Positions 31,870 to 52,231 of a stretch of 64,000 nucleotides of DNA are shown here, in pieces (position 1 is the stretch's first letter; each line of letters starts with the position of its first letter). Below the pieces are notes generated by a model. It had not been told where the DNA came from, did not search any database, and saw nothing but the letters and a program-made list of their open reading frames with translations. The DNA is from Desulfuromonadales bacterium. GTDB taxonomy: Bacteria; Desulfobacterota; Desulfuromonadia; Geobacterales; Pseudopelobacteraceae. The DNA lies in assembly GCA_013349325.1 (NCBI GenBank), contig DUZX01000001.1, positions 163,027 to 227,026 of the forward strand, written 5' to 3'. The position numbers and the translations under genes were made by a program.

Positions 31870-34305
31870 TTACGGCTCCTTTTCAAGTCCAGGCTCGCAG
31901 CGTCCGGTACCACAGAACGGACAGATTGCCCACCCGTCTTCCAGCGGCATGCGACAGTTTTTACAGCAGTTATGGCGGAATGAGCCGCAGTGCGGACAGA
32001 ATAAAAACTTTGAATCGATGCTCCTGCCGCAGGCTTCACAGTGCCGCTCCATCCTGATGGTCGGCCCGACGACGCGTAACAGCTCTTCCAGCGTGGTCCA
32101 GCCGCGCAGCACCTTCTCGAGGCCATCTTCCAGAAGGGTCTTCATGCCGTTACTGCGGGCCAGATTAAGCAGGTCCGATTCGTGATAATCGGAACCGATC
32201 ATGTGCCGGAAATCATCATTCATAACAAACATCTCATAGACGCCGACCCGGCCGCGATAACCGGTATTGTTGCACTGCGGACACCCCTGCCCGACCGTGA
32301 TACCGTCGCCGAAAAATTCCGTTGGCAGACGCAACAGCTCCAGCAGTGCCTGATCAGGATCCGTACGCGCTGCACAACCGCTACAGACCTTGCGCACCAG
32401 ACGCTGGGCAATGACCCCTTCCAGAGCCGATGCGATAATATAAGGCTTGATACCCATATCGATCAGACGGGTTACCGAGGCTACGGCACTGTTGGTATGC
32501 AGCGTCGAGAGCACCATATGCCCGGTCAGAGCGGCTTTGAAGGCGGTGTCGGCCGTATCAAAATCACGCATCTCCCCCACCAGGATCACATCCGGATCCT
32601 GACGCAGCGTGGCCCGCAGCACCTGCGCAAACGAGAGTCCGATCTTCTCGTGAATCGAGACCTGATTGGCCTCTTCGAGGAAATATTCAACCGGTTCTTC
32701 GATCGTCTCAAAGTTCTTGTTGGGATTCATCATGGCAGCCAGCAGCGAATAAAGCATCGTGGTTTTGCCGCTGCCGGTCGGGCCGGTTGCGATCACGACC
32801 CCCTGCGGCTTGCAGCTGATCAGCGTGATATTGCGGAAATCATTTTCCAGAACTCCCAGCTCATCCAGTTTTTTGATGGAGGCGCTTTTGTCCAGAATAC
32901 GCATGACGATCTTTTCACCGTTGATGGTCGGGAGCGACGAAACGCGCATATCGACGAGACGGGTGCCGGATTTGACCGTAATGCGGCCATCCTGGGGGCG
33001 GCGCCGTTCAGCGATGTCCATCTTGGCCAGGATCTTGATGCGTGAGACGACCGCCGGATGCATATCGGCAGGGATCTTGATCTTGGCATGCAGCATGCCG
33101 TCAATGCGATAGCGAATGACGGTGTATTTTGTTTTGGCCTCGATATGAATATCACTGGCACCGTAACGGATCGCTTCCGAGATGACGGCGTTGACGATAC
33201 GGATAACCGGCGGAACTTTGGATGAGCCGATCAGCTCCTCGACGCTGGTCTGATCCTCTTCTTCATCCAGAATAATGTCGATTTCATCCAGCGGTTCCAT
33301 ATCCTCGAAATTCTGACCGCCGGAATCGGAATCAATGGACCAGGCCTGGGCGATTTTTTCGCCAATCTGCGACGAAGCCGCCAGGAGCGGCAGTACCCGC
33401 AGACCGGTAACACGACCGATGTTGTCGCAGGTCACGATATCGGAAGGATCGGCCATGGCAACCGTCAAGGCGGTTCCCTCCATCCGGACCGGCACCAGAC
33501 GGCTCTTGTCACAGAGCTCTTTCGGCAGGCAGCGCGCCACGGTGGAGGGAATGTTCACTTCACGCAGATCAATGAACTCAACCTGCAGATGCTTCTGCAG
33601 GGCGGCGATTATTTTGGACTCGCTCAAAATACCGGAGCGGACAAAAAAATCACCCAGAAATTCGTTACTCTCTTTCTGCAGGCGGGCCTGGTCGAGTTCC
33701 TGCGTGCCGATCAGCGACGACTTGATCAGAATATCGCCCAGCATGCCGCGGTTCTGTTCAAACAGACCGGCAAAGCTCTTGATCTTGTTCTGCTGCTGGC
33801 GTGTGACATCCTTCAGCCGTCGGTTCTCGTGCATCAGCACGTACTGTTGCAGCGCCAGACTGACAGTCAGCCGCAAATCTTCGTCATTCCATGGTTTGGT
33901 GATGAACTTGTAGACGGCGCCTTCCTTGACGGCGCCCATGATCGAGTTGACATCGGCGTGACCGGTCAGCATGATCCTGATTGTGGCGGGATATTTTTCG
34001 CGAACCAGCTTGAGCAGTTCACCACCGGTCATACCGGGCATACGATGATCCGTTATGATCAGCTGGACAGGTTCGTGGGCCAGAATTTCAAGCGCTTTGA
34101 GTGCCGAACCGGCCGTCAGAATGACGTAGTTTTCATCAATGAATATGCGCCGTAACGCGCTCAGAACATTTTCTTCATCATCGACAAACAGCAGCGTGAA
34201 GCCGCGTTCAGGGATATCGGAAGCGTCCAATTCAACGCCACCATCCGTCGCCTCCGGCGCTTTCAGGCTTCCCATCCCCTTGAATAAATCGGCATATTTG
34301 GACAT
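31870..34305 (-). CDS. REC-MshEN-PilB/GspE ATPase fusion with C-terminal zinc ribbons
   Basis: An 811-residue fusion. The order is a REC domain (about 35-160; 'LLFVDDEENV', 'LIITDHRMPGMTG', 'FITKPWNDED'), a coiled coil, and an MshEN-like domain (about 185-320) in which the c-di-GMP motif is degenerate ('MLGDILIKSSLI', later 'LGDFFVRSGIL'). The secretion ATPase core follows, with Walker A 'ATGPTGSGKTTMLYSLL', Walker B 'PDVILVGEMRDFDTADTA', 'LSTLHTN' and the tetra-Cys site 'CSGC' / 'CPQCNNTGYRGR'. After the usual end of the family there are about 65 extra residues with four CxxC pairs ('CEACGR', 'CPHCGS', 'CKNCRM', 'CPFCGT'). It probably powers or regulates a type IV pilus or type II secretion machine in response to phosphorylation. 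No other pilus genes are in the window. Confidence 0.9.
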   Translation of the reverse strand: MSKYADLFKGMGSLKAPEATDGGVELDASDIPERGFTLLFVDDEENVLSALRRIFIDENYVILTAGSALKALEILAHEPVQLIITDHRMPGMTGGELLKLVREKYPATIRIMLTGHADVNSIMGAVKEGAVYKFITKPWNDEDLRLTVSLALQQYVLMHENRRLKDVTRQQQNKIKSFAGLFEQNRGMLGDILIKSSLIGTQELDQARLQKESNEFLGDFFVRSGILSESKIIAALQKHLQVEFIDLREVNIPSTVARCLPKELCDKSRLVPVRMEGTALTVAMADPSDIVTCDNIGRVTGLRVLPLLAASSQIGEKIAQAWSIDSDSGGQNFEDMEPLDEIDIILDEEEDQTSVEELIGSSKVPPVIRIVNAVISEAIRYGASDIHIEAKTKYTVIRYRIDGMLHAKIKIPADMHPAVVSRIKILAKMDIAERRRPQDGRITVKSGTRLVDMRVSSLPTINGEKIVMRILDKSASIKKLDELGVLENDFRNITLISCKPQGVVIATGPTGSGKTTMLYSLLAAMMNPNKNFETIEEPVEYFLEEANQVSIHEKIGLSFAQVLRATLRQDPDVILVGEMRDFDTADTAFKAALTGHMVLSTLHTNSAVASVTRLIDMGIKPYIIASALEGVIAQRLVRKVCSGCAARTDPDQALLELLRLPTEFFGDGITVGQGCPQCNNTGYRGRVGVYEMFVMNDDFRHMIGSDYHESDLLNLARSNGMKTLLEDGLEKVLRGWTTLEELLRVVGPTIRMERHCEACGRSIDSKFLFCPHCGSFRHNCCKNCRMPLEDGWAICPFCGTGRCEPGLEKEP

Positions 34306-39795: not shown

Positions 39796-41817
39796 TCAAG
39801 ATCCAGCATCCGTTTCCGGTTGCAGCGGCAGGCACACGGTGAACGTCGAGCCTGTACCGACTTCGCTTGCCACCCGGATCTCACCGCCATGTTTTCGAAT
39901 TATTTCCGCTGAAATCGAGAGTCCCAAGCCGGTACCTTTTCCGATTTCCTTGGTGGTGTAAAAGGCGTCAAAGATCTTGACCAAATTTTCGTTGGGAATG
40001 CCACAGCCGCTATCCGTAACAGCTATAAAGGCATAATGCTCGTCACACCAGCTGCTGACTGCAATTTTGCCAATCTCGCTCCCCTTGGCCTTAATAGCAT
40101 GAACCGAATTGATGAGCAGATTCAGGAATACCTGGTTGATCTGCTGGATATTACATTTAATTGAGGGGAGTTCTCCGTAGTCACGTTTCAGCTCTGCGAT
40201 GTATTTTATCTCGTTAAATGCAATCGTGATGGCGCTCTCGAAACAGCTGTTCAAATCGGCCTTGCCACGCGCCGAGGAATCAGCCCGAGAAAAGGTTTTC
40301 AGGTCATTGACGATACGCTTGACGCGCTCGATGCCTTCATTGCTCTCATCAATCAGCACGCTGATGTCGCGCATGACATAATCAAGCTTCATTGAACGGC
40401 GCATGTCCCGGACCGCTTCGGGCAGCGTCCCGCCCGTAGTGCCGGATAATTCCTGCTCCAGCTTCTCGATATAGCCGTTATATTTCTCAACATATTTTCC
40501 CAGCGTCAGCAGATTGCTGCCTACAAAACCGATCGGATTATTGATTTCATGAGCCATTCCGGCTGCCAGCTGACCGATAGAGGCCAGCTTGTCGTTATGC
40601 ATCAGCTGCTGCTGCATCTTGCGCACGGTTTCTTCCGACTGTTTCAAATCGGTTATATCAATGGTATAGCCAGCAAGAATATTCTGATCACCCGACGTGC
40701 GAATCGGGAATTTATAGGTAATAAAATATTTATCTTTCAGCAGTTCCTCCAATCGCAGGACTTTCTGGTCGCTTACAACCTGTATATCGTCAGTTGTCAT
40801 ACTGTCGGCGAACTCTTGGGGAAAGAGCTGACGCATGTTCTTGCCGATCATATCCGCTGCCGGAATGCCGACCATGTCGATAAAATTGTCACTGGCCTGC
40901 ACCACGGTACTTTCCTGGCCAGAGACCTCTTTGATGTAGCAGTAGATCGGAGAAAATTTCATGAAGAGGGCGAACCTCTCATTTATACGAATAATTTCTT
41001 CCTGCAGCTTGAATCGCTCAGTAATTTTCCATACCGCTTCCATCATCAGCATCAGATTCTGAATATCTACCTGATCGTATGGCAACCGCTTGTTGGCGAC
41101 ACCGACAACCGCCACAATCCTGTCGTTTTCAAAAACGGGGATACTTAGAAAGCGGGATAATTGAACATGACCCTCGGGATACCCTTTTTTAAGGTCGCTG
41201 GGGGCGGTATAGTCATTGACCATGATCGGGGCACGCTGCCGCACGACTTCACCCCAGATGCCGGTTTTGTCAAGATGGTAGATTGTTTGCGGTTCGGCTA
41301 CACGGCACGAATCCATGACATCCTTTGACCAGGTATTCAGAATGAACCGCCGCTCATCCTCGTTGTAATTATAGATATAACCGATACGGCTTTCGGTCAG
41401 CGCTATGACTCTGTCCAGTGCGAAATCGAGCAGATCCTGTACCGACGTGGCATTATGATGAGTGACCTCCTGTATCAGCGTCAACCTCTCCACATTGTGT
41501 CGCAACTCCTTTTCAACCATCTCCATTTTCAGCCATTTACGATACACCAGCCAGACCAGCAGACCCGACATCAACATCACGAAACCGGCCATTCCGACAA
41601 CCCGATACATCTCTTCGCGAGATTCATAGGCCGTTTCCGTCTGCCTGACAAGCTCAGTGCTTGTATGCAGCAGCTGTAAAATAGCGAGTGTGCCGACAAC
41701 AACCGACACTAAGGCCAGACCTACAATCAGACGCTTCAGGGGCGACTTCGGCATTGCACTCAACTGATTCTGCCCCGCAGAATCTCTGTCATTCTTCAGA
41801 TCACCCATCGCTCTCAT
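39796..41817 (-). CDS. Membrane histidine kinase with GAF and PAS domains
   Basis: A 673-residue kinase. Two membrane segments (about 28-50 and 73-93) enclose a very short periplasmic loop of some 20 residues. A GAF domain (about 110-270; 'ESRIGYIYNYNEDERRF', 'RFLSIPVFENDRIVAVVGV'), a PAS domain (about 285-395), the H-box '[19 protein letters not shown]' and an HATPase domain ('VTDSGCGIPNENLVKIFDAF', '[11 protein letters not shown]') follow. The short loop suggests sensing by the cytoplasmic domains. Two ATG codons are possible (41817 and 41808); the second lies in the stop region of the upstream GGDEF gene. Confidence 0.9.
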   Translation of the reverse strand: MRAMGDLKNDRDSAGQNQLSAMPKSPLKRLIVGLALVSVVVGTLAILQLLHTSTELVRQTETAYESREEMYRVVGMAGFVMLMSGLLVWLVYRKWLKMEMVEKELRHNVERLTLIQEVTHHNATSVQDLLDFALDRVIALTESRIGYIYNYNEDERRFILNTWSKDVMDSCRVAEPQTIYHLDKTGIWGEVVRQRAPIMVNDYTAPSDLKKGYPEGHVQLSRFLSIPVFENDRIVAVVGVANKRLPYDQVDIQNLMLMMEAVWKITERFKLQEEIIRINERFALFMKFSPIYCYIKEVSGQESTVVQASDNFIDMVGIPAADMIGKNMRQLFPQEFADSMTTDDIQVVSDQKVLRLEELLKDKYFITYKFPIRTSGDQNILAGYTIDITDLKQSEETVRKMQQQLMHNDKLASIGQLAAGMAHEINNPIGFVGSNLLTLGKYVEKYNGYIEKLEQELSGTTGGTLPEAVRDMRRSMKLDYVMRDISVLIDESNEGIERVKRIVNDLKTFSRADSSARGKADLNSCFESAITIAFNEIKYIAELKRDYGELPSIKCNIQQINQVFLNLLINSVHAIKAKGSEIGKIAVSSWCDEHYAFIAVTDSGCGIPNENLVKIFDAFYTTKEIGKGTGLGLSISAEIIRKHGGEIRVASEVGTGSTFTVCLPLQPETDAGS

Positions 41818-42707
41818 CCGTCACCCGATTGCGACCTCTGCTTTTGCTGAGATACATACGTGTATCAGCACGACTGACAATACTGGCACCGGTATCATCC
41901 GAGCGGGACATGGTTGCCCCGATAGAAACCGTGACACTCAATTTATCGTCCCCGACCATAATAAAGCTGTGCTCAATTAACACACGAATGCGCTCTGCCA
42001 CCGATTTGACAACAACAGTGCTGGCGCCGGGCAGAATGACGATAAACTCCTCACCTCCCCAGCGTGCAACAACGTCCATTTTCCGCAACGAATAGGAAAT
42101 TGATTTGGCCACCATGACCAGCACATCGTCGCCAGTTTTATGACCGTACTGATCGTTGAAATGTTTAAAATGATCAATATCGATGAAGAGGACACCAACC
42201 GGAATGTCGTGCGTCTTCAGCTCGAAAATGCGGCTCTCCAGCGTCATTTCTCCGTAGCGCCGGTTACCGACAGTCGTGAGCGGGTCCAGATACGCGTCCC
42301 GTTTCAACTGTTCAAATTCGTGCAGAATCTGTAATGAATTCGAATTATCACAAAAAATTTCGACCGCGCCGATTATCGCACCGGCATCATCACGCACCGG
42401 AGAAGTTCTGACAGAAACCGGAACGCGATGACCCAGGGCATGATGCAGGAACACACTCGACTCACGTGCCTTGCCGTCCATGATGGTGGCTGCCAGTGGG
42501 CAGCCGTCCCGGCACAGTTCGCGCCCGTTACTGTCAATATGCCTAAGCAGATTGTCTGCACAACAGCTGCCGGTCACACGTTCCGAGGAATAACCTTGAA
42601 ATGCGCTCGGCAGCGGCGTTCCAGTAGGTAATGCGCCGGTTGACATCAACAACGTAGACGCCGTCAAACAGACTGTCCAATATTTTTTCTCCGGATATTT
42701 GAGGCAT
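41801..42707 (-). pseudogene. PAS-GGDEF diguanylate cyclase, frameshifted inside the PAS domain
   Basis: The N-terminal PAS start ('ILDSLFDGVYVVDVNRRITY', 'WNAAAERIS') lies in the frame of the small ORF 42543-42725. The continuation ('GYSSERVTGSCCADN', 'ELCRDGCPLAATI') lies in the frame of ORF 41801-42667. The junction, around 42594-42599 (minus-strand TTTCAAGGTTAT), is restored by removing one A. The rest is intact: a GGDEF domain with 'RWGGEEFIVILPG' and an RxxD inhibitory site (RKMD) five residues before it. I take ATG 42707 as the original start, with AGG 8 bases upstream. As sequenced, the cyclase could be made only from an internal start. A real mutation, a programmed slip or a base-call error are all possible. 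Confidence 0.8.
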
Positions 42708-42731: not shown

Positions 42732-43403
42732 TTACTTCTTCTTTTTTTGACTGTTTTCCATCCCGTCCGGCTCACCATATTTAATTGACATGCATTCGGG
42801 ACAGATGCCGTGGCTGAATTCGGCGTCGGAGTGTTCCATGATGTATTTTTCCAGCTTATGCCACGACTCCTCTTCATCACGAATCTTTTTGCAGTACATG
42901 CAGATCGGAATAATCCCTTCCAGCTTTTTGATTGCAGCCAGAGCTGCCTCCAGCTGCACGACTTTTTCCGCCAGCTCATGCTGTACCCGCTTCAGGTGAA
43001 AATTTTTCTTGTCGAGTTCCCGCTGCATGGCGATCAGGTCATTGTTCAACACACCCATTCGTTCGATGACATCATTATTGGTATGCAGCGGACGCTCGCA
43101 CCACAGCAGCAGACCGTTCTCTATCTGTAATCGATGGGCTACCAGCACACCATGCACTCCGGTTTTAGGGTTGCATACGTATTGCTGGGTACCCGCAACC
43201 AACAGTCCACCTTTGACTATTGCCGTCAGATAATCGCCCAAAACGGCTCCAACCGGTTTTTCGGCCAGAGAAAACAGCTTCAAAAAACCGTGATTACAAT
43301 CACGGATCAGGTGGTGCTCGTCTATCAACACTATCGGCACACTGCTGCTGATCGCTATAAAATCTCCCAGTTCCTGGCAGTTTTTCGTAAGCTCCCTGAT
43401 CAT
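42732..43403 (-). CDS. PAS protein with C-terminal 'CMYCKKIR...HGICPEC' domain
   Basis: A 223-residue soluble protein. A PAS-like domain (about 15-115; 'SSVPIVLIDEHHLIRDCNHG') is followed by a coiled coil (about 118-160). A small Cys-rich domain comes next: 'IPICMYCKKIRDEEESWHKL', then 'EHSDAEFSHGICPEC'. The two CxxC pairs suggest a metal or redox site. The same C-terminal domain occurs at the end of the REC gene at 51608. The tail is a Lys-rich stretch. The gene overlaps the upstream B12-binding gene by four bases, so it is coupled to it. The output activity is unknown; I saw no enzyme domain. Confidence 0.8.
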   Translation of the reverse strand: MIRELTKNCQELGDFIAISSSVPIVLIDEHHLIRDCNHGFLKLFSLAEKPVGAVLGDYLTAIVKGGLLVAGTQQYVCNPKTGVHGVLVAHRLQIENGLLLWCERPLHTNNDVIERMGVLNNDLIAMQRELDKKNFHLKRVQHELAEKVVQLEAALAAIKKLEGIIPICMYCKKIRDEEESWHKLEKYIMEHSDAEFSHGICPECMSIKYGEPDGMENSQKKKK

Positions 43404-44566
43404 TTTTTCACCTCACTGTCCTGCCACCATGCTGTACAAAGCGCAGCAAGTTCGTCCAGACCGGCGCCATAGCCATCCGCACCAAACTCATACCATAAAT
43501 GCGGGACAATGCTGAACGCTAATCCCCCCACCACTATTTTCAGTGAAGAAAACTCCGGCTTGCTCCTGATGGTCGCAATCAGTTCTTTGGCCCTGGCAAG
43601 ATTGAACGGTGTCGCAACCGACAGCGCCAACAGGAACGGCTGATGCCGCCGGAGCAGTTCCAACAACCCTTCTACCGGGAAGTTAGCCCCCAGATAGGTT
43701 ACGTTCCAACCATCAAATTCCAGCACATCGGCCACCATACGGGCGCCCACTTCATGAAATTCGTTGGGTGCGGCTGTGACGATCGCCGTTCCCTTCGACT
43801 GCGGTACACCCACAAAACGGGCATAGAGATGCGACGTAATCCGACCGGCAATGGCGGTGGCCTGATGCTCCTCGGCGACCGTCAGTTCGTTGCGTTCCCA
43901 GAGTGTTCCGACAGTGTAGAGGGCGTGCCTGAGGACATGCTCGTAAAAACAACGTAGTTCTTCCGTCGTCGATATCGCCTGCTCTGCCAGCCGGAAACAG
44001 CCGATATAATCGCCGTTCAGCAGCAGCGTCGTAAAAATCTGCTGCATGCCGTCGCTTTCTGGCGGCAGGGAAATGTCAATCAGCTCCTTGCTGCGCGAAC
44101 GCTGAATCAACATTTCGTGCTGTTCACTCAAAAAGTCATACAGAGCCAGAACTGGCTGAATATCGCTGGCTTCAGCCTTGTCCCGCACGGCTTTTTTCCA
44201 GCTCTGTAGCGCCAGTGGGAAAATACCGTGGGAAAAGCCGCGCGAATGATAGGTTCGATAGAGCCACGGCACCGTTCGGATCAACAGATCTACTGAGCTT
44301 AGCTGTAGTGCTGCCAGTACGAGCTGTGCGTGATGCTGATTAAACAGATGCATCATATGCAGCGTATTCTGTCCGATCAGAAGGGACAGGTCAGGACGGT
44401 CGCTCAGTTCATGCTCTACCTGAGCAATCATTCGCTCCATGTCAGCGGCAAACCACCCGGCACACTCTGGCGGTATGGCCTGTAACCCGGCAGTATCGAT
44501 GTGCGGTGTCTCGGTCACAACAAACTCCCCTTTGGAATATGCGGTAATGCCACCTGAAAAGGCCAT
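43400..44566 (-). CDS. Free-standing B12-binding sensory protein (CarH-like light/cobalamin module)
   Basis: A 388-residue protein. Residues 1-160 are helical and unassigned. A four-helix B12-binding-2 domain (about 170-250) contains 'LWERNELTVAEEH', a W-x9-EH motif as found in the adenosylcobalamin photoreceptor CarH. A Rossmann-type B12 domain follows with 'NEFHEVGARMVADVLEFDGW' (E-x-H-x-x-G instead of the enzyme D-x-H-x-x-G), then 'VTYLGANFPVEGL' and 'IVVGGLAFS'. There is no MerR DNA-binding domain, so the output must be protein-protein. A GTG start at 44518 (GGGGAG upstream) is an alternative to ATG 44566. It is coupled to the PAS-Cys gene downstream. Confidence 0.85.
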   Translation of the reverse strand: MAFSGGITAYSKGEFVVTETPHIDTAGLQAIPPECAGWFAADMERMIAQVEHELSDRPDLSLLIGQNTLHMMHLFNQHHAQLVLAALQLSSVDLLIRTVPWLYRTYHSRGFSHGIFPLALQSWKKAVRDKAEASDIQPVLALYDFLSEQHEMLIQRSRSKELIDISLPPESDGMQQIFTTLLLNGDYIGCFRLAEQAISTTEELRCFYEHVLRHALYTVGTLWERNELTVAEEHQATAIAGRITSHLYARFVGVPQSKGTAIVTAAPNEFHEVGARMVADVLEFDGWNVTYLGANFPVEGLLELLRRHQPFLLALSVATPFNLARAKELIATIRSKPEFSSLKIVVGGLAFSIVPHLWYEFGADGYGAGLDELAALCTAWWQDSEVKK

Positions 44567-44650: not shown

Positions 44651-46675
44651 TTAAGTATGATTTTCAGCTTCTGTGACACTCAATTCCAGAGGCGCTCCGG
44701 CTACCGGCAGGCTGACGGTAAAGGTGGAACCCTCTCCGATAATGCTGTCCACATTAATTTCGCCACCATGTTTTCGGATGATCCCGTAACTGATCGAAAG
44801 CCCCAGTCCGGTTCCTTTGCCAACCTCTTTGGTGGTAAAAAACGGCTCAAAGATCCGCTTTTTATTTTCATCAGAAATGCCGCAGCCACTGTCGGCAACG
44901 GATATATAGACCGTGGCATCGTCACACCAGGTACGAATGGTGATGGAACCATGCCCGGCAATCGCCTGACCTGCGTTGGTCAACAGGTTTATGAACACCT
45001 GGCTGATCTGCTGAGGGTGGCAGAGTATGTGTGGCAAAGAGCCATAGTCGGTGCGCACCTCGGCCACGTATTTGATCTCGTTGCAGGCTATGTTCAGTGC
45101 GCTCTGCAGACAGGCGTTCAGATCGGTGGCCACCGGCCTGACCTGATCGGTACGCGCCAGATTTTTCAAGTCGTTGACAATCGCCTTGACCCTGGTGGCA
45201 CCGTCAAGACTTTCGGCGATCAATTCGCAGGTGTCCGAAATGACATAATCAATCTTTAAACGTCTGCGGGCTTCTGCAGTCTCTCGTTTTCCGGCGCACT
45301 CCGATTCGGCCAGGGCATGATCGGAAAAAGTCAGGTACTCGACGACTTTTTGCATATATTTATGCAATGTCGCCAGGTTGCTGCTGATAAACCCCATCGG
45401 ATTGTTGATCTCGTGGGCCACACCAGCCGCCAGTTGACCGATAGAAGCCATTTTTTCCTGCTGAAGCAGCTGTTGATTGCTTATTTTTAGTTCTCTGAGC
45501 GCCTGCTCCAACACCATCCTGCTGGCCTGATGTTCATCTTTTTCCTCTTTTAATGTTTCAAAAGCGCGCTGAAGCTGGACATAATTCTGAATTTCGTTGG
45601 TCAGAATCAAAGCGGCGTAGCTGAAAAACGCACCCAGATTGGGGAGAAACTGTTCTGAATCCAGATGCATGTTTTCAATTTTAAAGAGTCCGATGGTTGA
45701 GTTCCCGGCGATCAGCGGCACAAGCCAGGTACTTGCAGAGCTGAAGATCCTTGTGTGCATCATGGTATCGCTGAATTTACAGTCCTGTTGCGTCAACTGC
45801 CCGGATTGCAGAGCCTCACATACCAGTGGATCAGCGATGTTTTCAGCGACCCCGTGGCCCCCCTTCAGATCGGCATAGTGTATTGATCCATCAACATAGT
45901 AGTAAATAACCGCATCCGTGCCCCCCAGAGAATCAACCACCAATTCAAGCAGATTGTTCAGTGTGTTTTCCAGACCGGGCAGCGCGCTCAAACGGTTCAT
46001 CATGCTGTTAACCAGCTGCAGATAGGATTTCTCACCGGCCAGCCGGTTGGCCCGTTGTTCCTGATACGCAAGCTTTTTCTTCAGCGCTTCGATCTCGGCT
46101 GCCTCGGGATTTTCCTGCTCCTGCAGCAACTGTTCTTTCAGCACATGGGCCAGATGATCCAGCGAAACATCCAGCCAGCGCAACGGCAGTCCGACTGAGG
46201 CGGCGGCCGCCTCGGCCTGTGCAGAAAAATCGCCCGAACAGGGGGTGCGCAGTGCCAGAAGACAGCTGCGGTCACCCTGAAATATTTCCCGCGCCACCTG
46301 GCGGTTGCCGAACGTTTTTTCGAGAATATCGTCCCAGGCAACGGCCCACTCCTCAAGCAGAAAATATGCGCCGCGAGACAGCTCATCGTTAAAAAGCTGC
46401 TTACCGAGCAGCATTTCTACACAGTTCTGACAGGGCACCCTGCGCACGTCCGGCATGGAATCGATGGCCGGGTGACAGGAGCCGTAGAGCAATACGACAT
46501 TTTTATCCGGGTTACCGGCAATGATCTTGTTCAGACTATGCTGCAGCTTTTCAGAATCAAAGTGATATGAGGATGTCAGAAAATGGCGGTCACAGCTCCA
46601 GTGCTGATCCTTAAAAACGCGCTCGACCTCCTTTTTCAGGATGCCGCACGCTATCAGCAGAGGCTGCTTATCCAT
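44651..46675 (-). CDS. Histidine kinase with N-terminal DUF1638 and GAF domains
   Basis: About 674 residues. The N-terminal 190 residues resemble DUF1638, a family normally found as single proteins beside corrinoid methyltransferases: '[15 protein letters not shown]', '[13 protein letters not shown]', '[15 protein letters not shown]' and 'GAYFLLEEW'. A coiled coil, a GAF domain (about 230-370; '[20 protein letters not shown]'), another coiled coil, the H-box '[19 protein letters not shown]' and an HATPase domain ('[20 protein letters not shown]') follow. The DUF1638 Cys residues could bind a metal or cofactor. I use ATG 46675, which overlaps the upstream UroD-like gene by 8 bases; the track starts at a TTG four codons earlier. 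The overlap makes a functional link with the corrinoid genes likely. Confidence 0.82.
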
Positions 46676-47699
46676 TACCTGCACCAAACTCTTTCACGGC
46701 ATCGATCATGGCGCGGATGTTGTCCGGCGGTACCGCCAGCGGCATAACAATCGTACCAAAGAAGAATCTGCCTCCCGGCATACCGTCGGCAAGCATCTGG
46801 CGCACCTCGGCACGCACACGCGCAGGAGTCCAGTCGATCAGCTGAATATCATTGATCACACCACCGCACAGCGCTCGACCATTGACAATCCGTTTACCCT
46901 CGGCCACGCTATCCAGCGGACTCAGGTAAAAGGTCCCGATACCCGTTTCATTGATAACCTGATCAATGACCGGATTCATTCGCGCCCCGCCGCAGTAGTA
47001 GACGATACCGTCCGTGCCCCCCTCAAGATCCCGCTTCATCCAGGGGATCGTTACGTCGTCAAAAAACTTTTGAGAGATAAAATCCAGAGAGCCAAACGGA
47101 TTTGCATAGATCAGAACAGTGGCACCCGCCCGACGGTAGGCTGCCACCTCCTTCCTGAAAAAATCGCTGCACTTCTCCAGCCAGGCATCACGCAGCTCGA
47201 CCGGGCCGTTCATCAGCAGATCAAACCATTTTTCCATCCCCATCAAGACTGCCGGAAGCGTTACCGAGGAGGTGATATAGGCGCAGATCGGAAAGCGTCC
47301 GGCGCTCTCCCGTCCCAAAATATCGAGACAACTGCGAATTTCGGCAAAACCGGCGTGCGTGAGTATGTCGTCCGGTATCTGTAGCCTGTCGATATCGGCA
47401 GGATTTTTAACGATCATTTCACCGACGTTGGGGGGGCCGTTATCGGCGTAGATGATATGTCTGCATCCCAGCAGTTCGGCCTCCTTGCCGACATAGAACA
47501 GACTCCAGAGATTATCATGACCGTATTTTTTCTGAAGGCGCAGCTGACCTTCGGCAACATACTCGCCCCGCGAGTAATACTCCCGCAACGACAGGCCTAA
47601 CTCCGCAGCCCCCTGATCAATCACATTACAAAAAGCAGGAATCCGGTCTGTCGGAAGCCCTTGGGCGGTTGACACCAGACGCTGCAGCGGAGTCATCAT
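46668..47699 (-). CDS. UroD/MtaA-like corrinoid methyltransferase-family protein
   Basis: A 343-residue protein of the uroporphyrinogen decarboxylase superfamily, in the branch of MtaA/CmuA methyl-corrinoid:thiol methyltransferases ('PAFCNVIDQGAAELGLSL', 'GCRHIIYADNGPPNVGEMI', 'LPAVLMGMEKWFDLLMN'). The usual zinc site is H-x-C followed by a distant Cys. Here the first part reads 'IVYYCGGARMNP' (His replaced by Tyr), and the C-terminal 'GGRFFFGTIVMPLAVPPDNI' lacks the second Cys. It may therefore bind a corrinoid partner without normal zinc-dependent transfer. The start is ATG 47699, which overlaps the stop of the corrinoid protein gene and has GGAGG 7 bases upstream. The track start at 47762 lies inside that gene. 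Confidence 0.83.
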   Translation of the reverse strand: MMTPLQRLVSTAQGLPTDRIPAFCNVIDQGAAELGLSLREYYSRGEYVAEGQLRLQKKYGHDNLWSLFYVGKEAELLGCRHIIYADNGPPNVGEMIVKNPADIDRLQIPDDILTHAGFAEIRSCLDILGRESAGRFPICAYITSSVTLPAVLMGMEKWFDLLMNGPVELRDAWLEKCSDFFRKEVAAYRRAGATVLIYANPFGSLDFISQKFFDDVTIPWMKRDLEGGTDGIVYYCGGARMNPVIDQVINETGIGTFYLSPLDSVAEGKRIVNGRALCGGVINDIQLIDWTPARVRAEVRQMLADGMPGGRFFFGTIVMPLAVPPDNIRAMIDAVKEFGAGNG

Positions 47700-48358
47700 G
47701 GCTGCACCTCCCGCAGCAACCGCGCGATGATCGGTCCGGCGGCAGTACCGTCGTGCGCCCACGCATCAGCTTGCACAACCTTATATAATTCTTCGTCATA
47801 ATTGTAGGGCGCCCCGCCGACTATGATACGGATATGCGCTTCCAGATTTCGTTCCTTGAGGATTTTGCGCACACCACGGGCAGCATTTTCGTCACGGGCA
47901 GAATGCACCATCATCGACGAGATGCCGATAACTCCGGCCTTATGGGCCAAAGCCTGATCAACAAATTTCTCGGCAGAAACGTTCAGACCAAGGTCGATTA
48001 CTTCAATCATCTGAGCCTTGAGACAGCCACTGACGATGCGTTTGCCAAGACCGTGAAAATCTCCCACTGAAGTTCCGATCACAATGCGCCCGATATATTC
48101 TGGAGCTTTGGCAAACAGAGGCACCATCATGTCTGTCACTTCGGCAGCAATCTGTGACGCCATAAAATGCTGCGCCAGATTGGTGTGGCGCTGTTCAACC
48201 GAGGCGATCATATCTTCAATGGCCGGCACGACAACCTTGAACATGACGTCTTCGGCAGACATACCCCGGCCGAGCGCTTCCTGAACCACCTGCAGGGCTT
48301 GCTGCCGATCCGTATCATAGACTGCATTGACGTACTGCGCGCGAATATCTTCAATCAT
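47696..48358 (-). CDS. MtbC/MttC-like corrinoid (B12-binding) protein
   Basis: A 220-residue two-domain protein typical of methyltransferase corrinoid proteins. A helical cap (1-85; 'GMSAEDVMFKVVVPAIEDM') precedes the B12-binding Rossmann domain with the complete base-off motif 'VGDFHGLGKRIVSGCLKA' (D-x-H-x-x-G), 'EVIDLGLNVSAEKFV', 'VIGISSMM' and 'IIVGGAPYN'. The His is the lower cobalt ligand. It would carry a methyl group or report the state of the cobalt. It lies between the Cache kinase (four-base overlap upstream) and the UroD-like gene (ATGA overlap downstream). No substrate-specific methyltransferase such as MtaB or MttB is in the window. Confidence 0.9.
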   Translation of the reverse strand: MIEDIRAQYVNAVYDTDRQQALQVVQEALGRGMSAEDVMFKVVVPAIEDMIASVEQRHTNLAQHFMASQIAAEVTDMMVPLFAKAPEYIGRIVIGTSVGDFHGLGKRIVSGCLKAQMIEVIDLGLNVSAEKFVDQALAHKAGVIGISSMMVHSARDENAARGVRKILKERNLEAHIRIIVGGAPYNYDEELYKVVQADAWAHDGTAAGPIIARLLREVQP

Positions 48359-51607: not shown

Positions 51608-52231
51608 TTATTGTTTCCAGACAGCGTCTTTAAAGCACTCCGGACAGATTCCGTGACTGAACTGGGCATCGGAATGTTCGCAGACATACTGCTCCAGTTG
51701 TTGCCAGCTTTTATCCTCGGAGCGAATTTTCTTGCAGTACATACAGATAGAAATAATACCTTCCAAGCGCCTGATACGACGCAGTGATTCCTCCAGTTCC
51801 GCCTTCTGATGCGCCAGTTCATCCCGCTGCCGGCACAACTGATCACGCTGCAGCTTGAGTTCAAGATGGTTTCTGACCCTCAGCAGCACCAGATCGGGGC
51901 TGATCGGCTTGGTGATATAGTCAATCGCCCCCAGGGAAAGCCCACGGGATTCGTCCAGCGACTTTTCCAGCGCCGTCACAAAAATCACCGGGATGCCAGC
52001 CAGTCCGGGATCAGCCTTCATTGTCTCACAGACTTCAAAACCGTTCATCCCGGGCATCATGACATCCAGCAGCACAAGATCAGGCTTTTCGGCCTGCGCC
52101 AGACTCAGGGCCACATGACCGTTATAGGCAATTGCAACCGTATAGTGGTCCTACAGAGTCATCTCCAGTACGCGCACGTTAAGCGGCTCGTCATCGACAA
52201 TCAGAATTTTGGCTGTTTCAGATTCGTTCAT
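51608..52231 (-). pseudogene. REC protein with 'CMYCKKIR...HGICPEC' domain, interrupted by TAG at codon 27
   Basis: The track shows only 51608-52114. Upstream in the same frame are the missing first residues, 'MNESETAKILIVDDEPLNV' and 'RVLEMTL', with a good AAGGAG ribosome-binding site before ATG 52231, then TAG at 52151-52153, then 'DHYTVAIAYNGHVALS'. The full product would be 207 residues: REC (phosphoacceptor in 'LVLLDVMMPGMNGFEV', Lys in 'DYITKPISPD'), a coiled coil, and the Cys domain 'ISICMYCKKIRSEDKSW' / 'FSHGICPEC'. Without readthrough, a product from the GTG at 52114 would lack the first strand and its acidic pair. It lies between two large kinases, so it was probably their shared receiver. 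Confidence 0.82.

Follow-up and report, generated by a model that had tools for sequence, protein, structure and literature searches.

Based on sequence comparison and structure prediction, the globin-B12 protein encoded in the window, the stretch of 64,000 nucleotides that was analysed, is probably a globin-first, photocobilin-like adenosylcobalamin (AdoCbl) light receptor that acts in trans on a PAS partner. It is a variant within a receptor family that was described only recently, and its architecture may already be partly described among photoglobins. The relevant features of the window are:

43400..44566 (-): globin-B12 protein; ATG 44566 would give 388 aa, the more probable start GTG 44518 gives 372 aa
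44057..44494 (-): predicted N-terminal phycobiliprotein/photoglobin-like globin domain, residues 25-170 (AF2, Foldseek, profile match to SasPcob globin)
43826..44032 (-): PF02607, residues 179-247, which forms the helical cap in the B12 domain and contains GTLW 220-223 and EH 233-234 (Pfam, motifs)
43460..43789 (-): PF02310, residues 260-369, the B12-binding domain of Rossmann type, which contains NEFH 268-271 and GANFP 293-297 (Pfam, motifs)
42732..43403 (-): partner with conserved PAS module, coiled coil and C-terminal four-Cys domain; its gene overlaps the B12 gene by 4 bases
41801..42667 (-): diguanylate cyclase of PAS-GGDEF type, which may serve as downstream output (Pfam)
39796..41817 (-): histidine kinase with GAF and PAS domains, encoded in the same gene run (Pfam)
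44651..46687 (-): neighbouring DUF1638-GAF-histidine kinase, which may belong to the same system (Pfam)
46668..47762 (-): neighbouring MtaA/URO-D-like protein, whose zinc motif is degenerate (Pfam, NCBIfam, motif)
47696..48358 (-): MtaC-like corrinoid protein, neighbour (Pfam, NCBIfam, motif)

The globin-B12 gene and its B12 domain

The open reading frame at 43400..44566 is real. Its start is probably GTG 44518, which is preferred because it is preceded by AAGGGGAG and coincides in the alignment with the position at which the homologues begin. Both parts of the B12 domain score above the Pfam cut-offs (B12-binding_2, 43.4 bits; B12-binding, 67.9 bits). The best solved sequence matches are SasPcob (8j2w/8j2x, E 3e-22) and CtMerR (8jbs, 9e-21), followed by AbPcob (8j2y, 6e-17) and TtCarH (5c8a, 7e-11), and the predicted fold of the domain matches the same four proteins. 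Judged from sequence and model, the domain is of the CarH/photocobilin kind. This agrees with the initial annotation, which had proposed a CarH-type B12 domain in a protein without DNA-binding domain; a MerR match was not obtained in Pfam.

The W-x9-EH and E-x-H motifs named in that annotation are exact: G220-T-L-W223 is separated by nine residues from E233-H234, and N268-E-F-H271-E and G293-A-N-F-P297 follow. Among 72 aligned homologues, which were collected with seeds overlapping the EH and HE stretches and are biased toward those residues, G is found in 71, W in 71, E in 70, H in 70, the lower-ligand H in 72 and P in 62. More weight is carried by ten unseeded full-length relatives, since the larger set was seeded on these stretches; W223 and H271 occur in all ten and E233/H234 in nine. 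As the positions are conserved throughout the family, W-x9-EH and NEFHE are not chance occurrences.

The light signature of B12 domains defined with SignatureFinder comprises GxxW, EH, GxxH and GxxxP (PMC11796333). Three of the four parts are present (G220-W223, E233-H234 and G293-P297), whereas GxxH is replaced by NxxH (N268-E-F-H271), with Asn in 24 of 30 members of the clade. The claim that the motif combination marks AdoCbl photoreceptors was therefore overstated.

Related B12 proteins were observed at other loci. A Geobacteraceae MAG encodes a globin-B12 paralogue (L042 5635-6831, the same as L063) with QF in place of EH and without PAS partner, which from its sequence is possibly a degraded or light-blind copy. 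The genome under study encodes a second W-x9-EH B12 protein without DNA-binding domain on contig C41 (L002 1192-1884; L150 4052-4744), and its gene overlaps a PAS-histidine kinase gene.

The PAS partner and the genomic surroundings

The reported coupling to a PAS-Cys gene was found as a 4-base overlap (ATGA) with the stop codon of the globin-B12 gene. Taken by itself, the Pfam match of the partner to PAS is weak (E 0.017). Nevertheless, a PAS-type partner adjoins the globin-B12 gene in 19 of 26 assessable full-length loci from many phyla, some of which derive from the same genome and are not all independent (the window, L050-L074 except L061, where the DNA ends, and L086). The profile of the partner's N-terminal module identified 17 of these, the weakest being L065 (E 2e-6, partial); two further loci were identified by a weaker PAS match in the neighbouring gene (L072; L066, E 0.028). 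At L069, the neighbour is a SpoIIE protein in which PAS was not detected.

The output part of the partner varies. It is Cys4 in the window, L050, L052, L055 and L058, a kinase in L054 (HisKA_3), L056 (hybrid kinase), L053 and L065 (both HisKA), GGDEF in L059, L060, L062, L064, L070, L072, L074 and L086, and a SpoIIE phosphatase in L066. The B12 gene of Halobacillus is followed by one for a STAS protein. Of the indirect evidence that signalling occurs in trans, this combination of a constant input with a varying output is the strongest, and the conserved gene pairing supports the initial suggestion of a protein switch acting via protein partners.

The four-Cys C-terminal domain (ICxYCKxIR...HGICPxC) is common to PAS, response-regulator and DUF1638 proteins (window 42732-43403 and 51608-52114; L066 9334-10596; L156 1473-2267). 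No Pfam family scored over the cut-off for it.

A nearby diguanylate cyclase had also been noted, and the PAS-GGDEF gene at 41801-42667 confirms this. The cluster is dense in signalling genes (MASE3, dCache, GAF and DUF1638 kinases; GGDEF; HD-GYP; RR-MshEN-T2SSE ATPase). The last of these, a fusion of response regulator, MshEN and T2SSE ATPase at 31870-34305, shares its gene run with an HD-GYP response regulator and kinases and is a candidate for a c-di-GMP-controlled pilus or secretion motor.

The MtaC-like and MtaA-like genes lie upstream of the globin-B12 gene. The zinc motif of MtaA-like proteins consists of HxC and a second Cys; in the window, Tyr replaces the His and the second Cys is missing, while both are present in the protein of a relative (L048). 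Together with DUF1638, the two genes recur next to the globin-B12 gene in L050 (Desulfuromonadales) and L066 (Riflebacteria), hence in two phyla (window 44651-48358; L050 1386-4952; L066 7668-10596). DUF1638 is fused to a histidine kinase in this set, and in L066 to the Cys4 domain. The set is possibly a methyltransferase-derived corrinoid or methyl sensor.

These neighbours bear on the main rival to light sensing, a cobalamin-state or redox sensor that would report the AdoCbl level, alkylation or the cobalt oxidation state (e.g. upon oxygen exposure) to the PAS partner, with light being irrelevant in nature. It would suit the many members from anaerobes, the corrinoid-linked genes adjoining in the window, L050 and L066, and the requirement of DUF1638 for B12-dependent methionine synthesis (PMC5764234). 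However, the adenosyl-capping W/E/H set is conserved, the nearest relatives are light-responsive and phototrophs also have the globin-B12 protein (Thiorhodospira L086, Chloroploca L072). We regard such a sensor as possible, if rather unlikely, and light sensing as the best-supported use of the protein and a fairly likely one.

The N-terminal globin and the supply of bilin

According to the initial annotation, about 160 unassigned residues replace the MerR domain of CarH. The replacement holds, but the residues can be assigned. A Pfam search with the N-terminal domain gave no match. AlphaFold2 prediction from an alignment of 32 diverse members yielded a pLDDT of 91.6, and the best 50 Foldseek matches of the model in the PDB are exclusively phycobiliproteins, the phycobilisome linker ApcE and smURFP (probability 0.99-1.00, TM (query) 0.46-0.70, modest E values of at least 0.017). 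A narrower profile of 10 sequences returned only noise from PDB sequences, whereas the photocobilin globin emerged once the profile was widened to diverse members; with 20 members, the SasPcob globin was matched at E 9e-5 and allophycocyanin beta at E 1e-3. Anaerolineae L091 and L077 are intermediates that match the N-terminal domain (E 4e-7 and 2e-6), and L091 also matches the SasPcob globin (E 0.009). BBAGs group with photoglobins and phycobiliproteins in a single larger clade (PMC10151467). In Bacteroidales (L075, L082) and likewise in Halobacillus (L088, L114, L115, L129), the B12 part and the globin part are separate neighbouring genes.

From profile and model, we assign the N-terminal ~150 residues to a phycobiliprotein/photoglobin-like globin, whose predicted shape resembles that of the light-harvesting proteins of cyanobacteria. 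For this reason the protein is placed near the photocobilins and not regarded as a CarH with an unassigned replacement. Comparison of the domain with heme oxygenase-linked globins by hhalign gave a weak match in register (probability 13%, E 0.002), of which the assignment is independent. The latter domains gave no match to solved globins, so that the name 'globin' is tentative for them.

In SasPcob, Asp270 contacts biliverdin. The corresponding residue here is Gln81, at a position that is variable across the clade. Trp101 is conserved in all of the clade globins and His79 in nearly all. AbPcob too lacks an equivalent of Asp270; it binds biliverdin poorly and keeps its B12 photochemistry. CxQD and RGMC are absent from the N-terminal globin, RGMC being a bilin motif in globin gene sets (PMC10151467). 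These residues make it unlikely that the globin binds biliverdin as published; it may be a structural relay.

A search of this genome with PF01126 (heme oxygenase) gave no match, and the same holds for 17 of the 23 genomes tested. Absence of heme oxygenase from this genome does not follow from this result: a heme oxygenase-globin homologue (L136) is interrupted by the end of contig C49, and it is 52% identical to a relative's heme oxygenase-globin fusion that matches PF01126. In relatives, such fusions are found beside B12 genes, and in L045 directly after the globin-B12 gene. For HutW (anaerobic heme degradation), all genomes tested gave sub-cut-off matches only.

A two-chromophore photocobilin, whose globin would bind biliverdin or another bilin and extend the response to red light, would be in line with the fold shared with bilin proteins and with the heme oxygenase-globin fusions, including the truncated one in this genome. 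Gln81 in place of Asp270, at a variable position, the missing bilin motifs and the many genomes without PF01126 match argue against it, as does the oxygen that heme oxygenase requires, and we consider it very unlikely.

Proposed mechanism and comparison with known systems

A methyltransferase corrinoid protein, i.e. an enzyme part with an extra domain and no receptor, would share the PF02607 and PF02310 architecture and the MtaA-like and MtaC-like neighbours, but is extremely improbable given scores far below the NCBIfam cut-offs (MtgC_2, 47.7 bits of 370; MtaC, 24.5 of 420; also MtbC), the adenosyl-capping EH, the globin domain, the signalling-gene setting and the separate MtaC-like protein already present.

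In the proposed light receptor, the C-terminal half would bind AdoCbl base-off with His271 as lower ligand, and Trp223, Glu233 and His234 would cap the adenosyl group. Cleavage of the Co-C bond, by green light or through chemical removal of the adenosyl moiety, would leave aquo/hydroxocobalamin. Rearrangement of the helical cap, together with the globin, may then change contact with the PAS/coiled-coil protein, whose interchangeable C-terminal domain would carry the output.

This mechanism is supported by the domains, the closeness of the B12 domain to those of the light-responsive SasPcob, CtMerR, AbPcob and TtCarH, the trans control of a diguanylate cyclase by standalone photocobilins (PMC10979010), the conserved light-signature residues, the predicted globin fold, the partner pairing with varying output and the presence of a cob(I)alamin adenosyltransferase gene in this genome. 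NxxH in place of GxxH, Gln81 in place of Asp270, the loss of EH in L042/L063 and the many clade members from anaerobes speak against it. Of the named relatives, those closest to it are MAGs with the labels Desulfuromonadales and Geobacteraceae, and the description as an anaerobe-type genome was upheld. A broader scenario is clearly unlikely: the clade globin would have swapped bilin for another ligand or a relay (His79, Trp101), and the B12 receptor would pair with any output via a PAS/coiled-coil adaptor, joined in Geobacteraceae and Riflebacteria by a converted MtaC-like/MtaA-like/DUF1638 set that brings corrinoid or methyl status and light into one cluster.

A light receptor of this kind would extend the photocobilin idea to Geobacteraceae-like bacteria from lakes and to several further phyla, and would do so with an evident genetic partner. 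Partner-mediated B12 light signalling, as proposed for standalone photocobilins, becomes testable as a two-gene system, and the natural series of one input with varied outputs (kinase, c-di-GMP, phosphatase) could be useful for green-light tools.

CarH/LitR (TtCarH) and CtMerR share with the globin-B12 protein the AdoCbl domain fold, W-x9-EH, the lower-ligand His (H271) and GxxxP. CarH has a MerR-type DNA-binding domain where the globin stands here. H132 of TtCarH, the second cobalt ligand in its bis-His light state, is replaced by Glu224, which directly follows W223 (Glu in 59 of 72 homologues). CtMerR and the photocobilins likewise lack an equivalent of H132, and the light structures of CtMerR and SasPcob are in a water/hydroxide-ligated state. 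By analogy, and because the second histidine of the CarH type is absent, we infer the same light state for the globin-B12 protein.

To our knowledge, AerR has no globin domain. Going by its description in PMC6199135, AerR is alike in being a B12 photoreceptor that lacks a DNA-binding domain and acts on a partner; that partner, CrtJ, is a transcription factor, in contrast to the PAS/coiled-coil protein found here. The BBAG-2 and Myxococcales sets of globin, B12-binding protein and heme oxygenase also tie a bilin-clade globin to a B12-binding protein, but as separate genes and with RGMC (PMC10151467), whereas the parts are fused here and RGMC is lacking.

Photocobilins (SasPcob, AbDPcob) are closest in the sequence of the B12 domain and share the W, EH and ExH motifs, the lack of a DNA-binding domain and the fusion to a bilin-type globin, which is predicted here. 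The globin-B12 protein differs in its Gln81 and NxxH and in the N-terminal position of its globin; both domain orders are reported for photocobilins in the available text of PMC10979010. The same text presents standalone photocobilins as thought to work via partners and as activating a diguanylate cyclase in trans. A co-encoded PAS/coiled-coil partner is not described in that text, whereas such a partner is present beside the globin-B12 gene.
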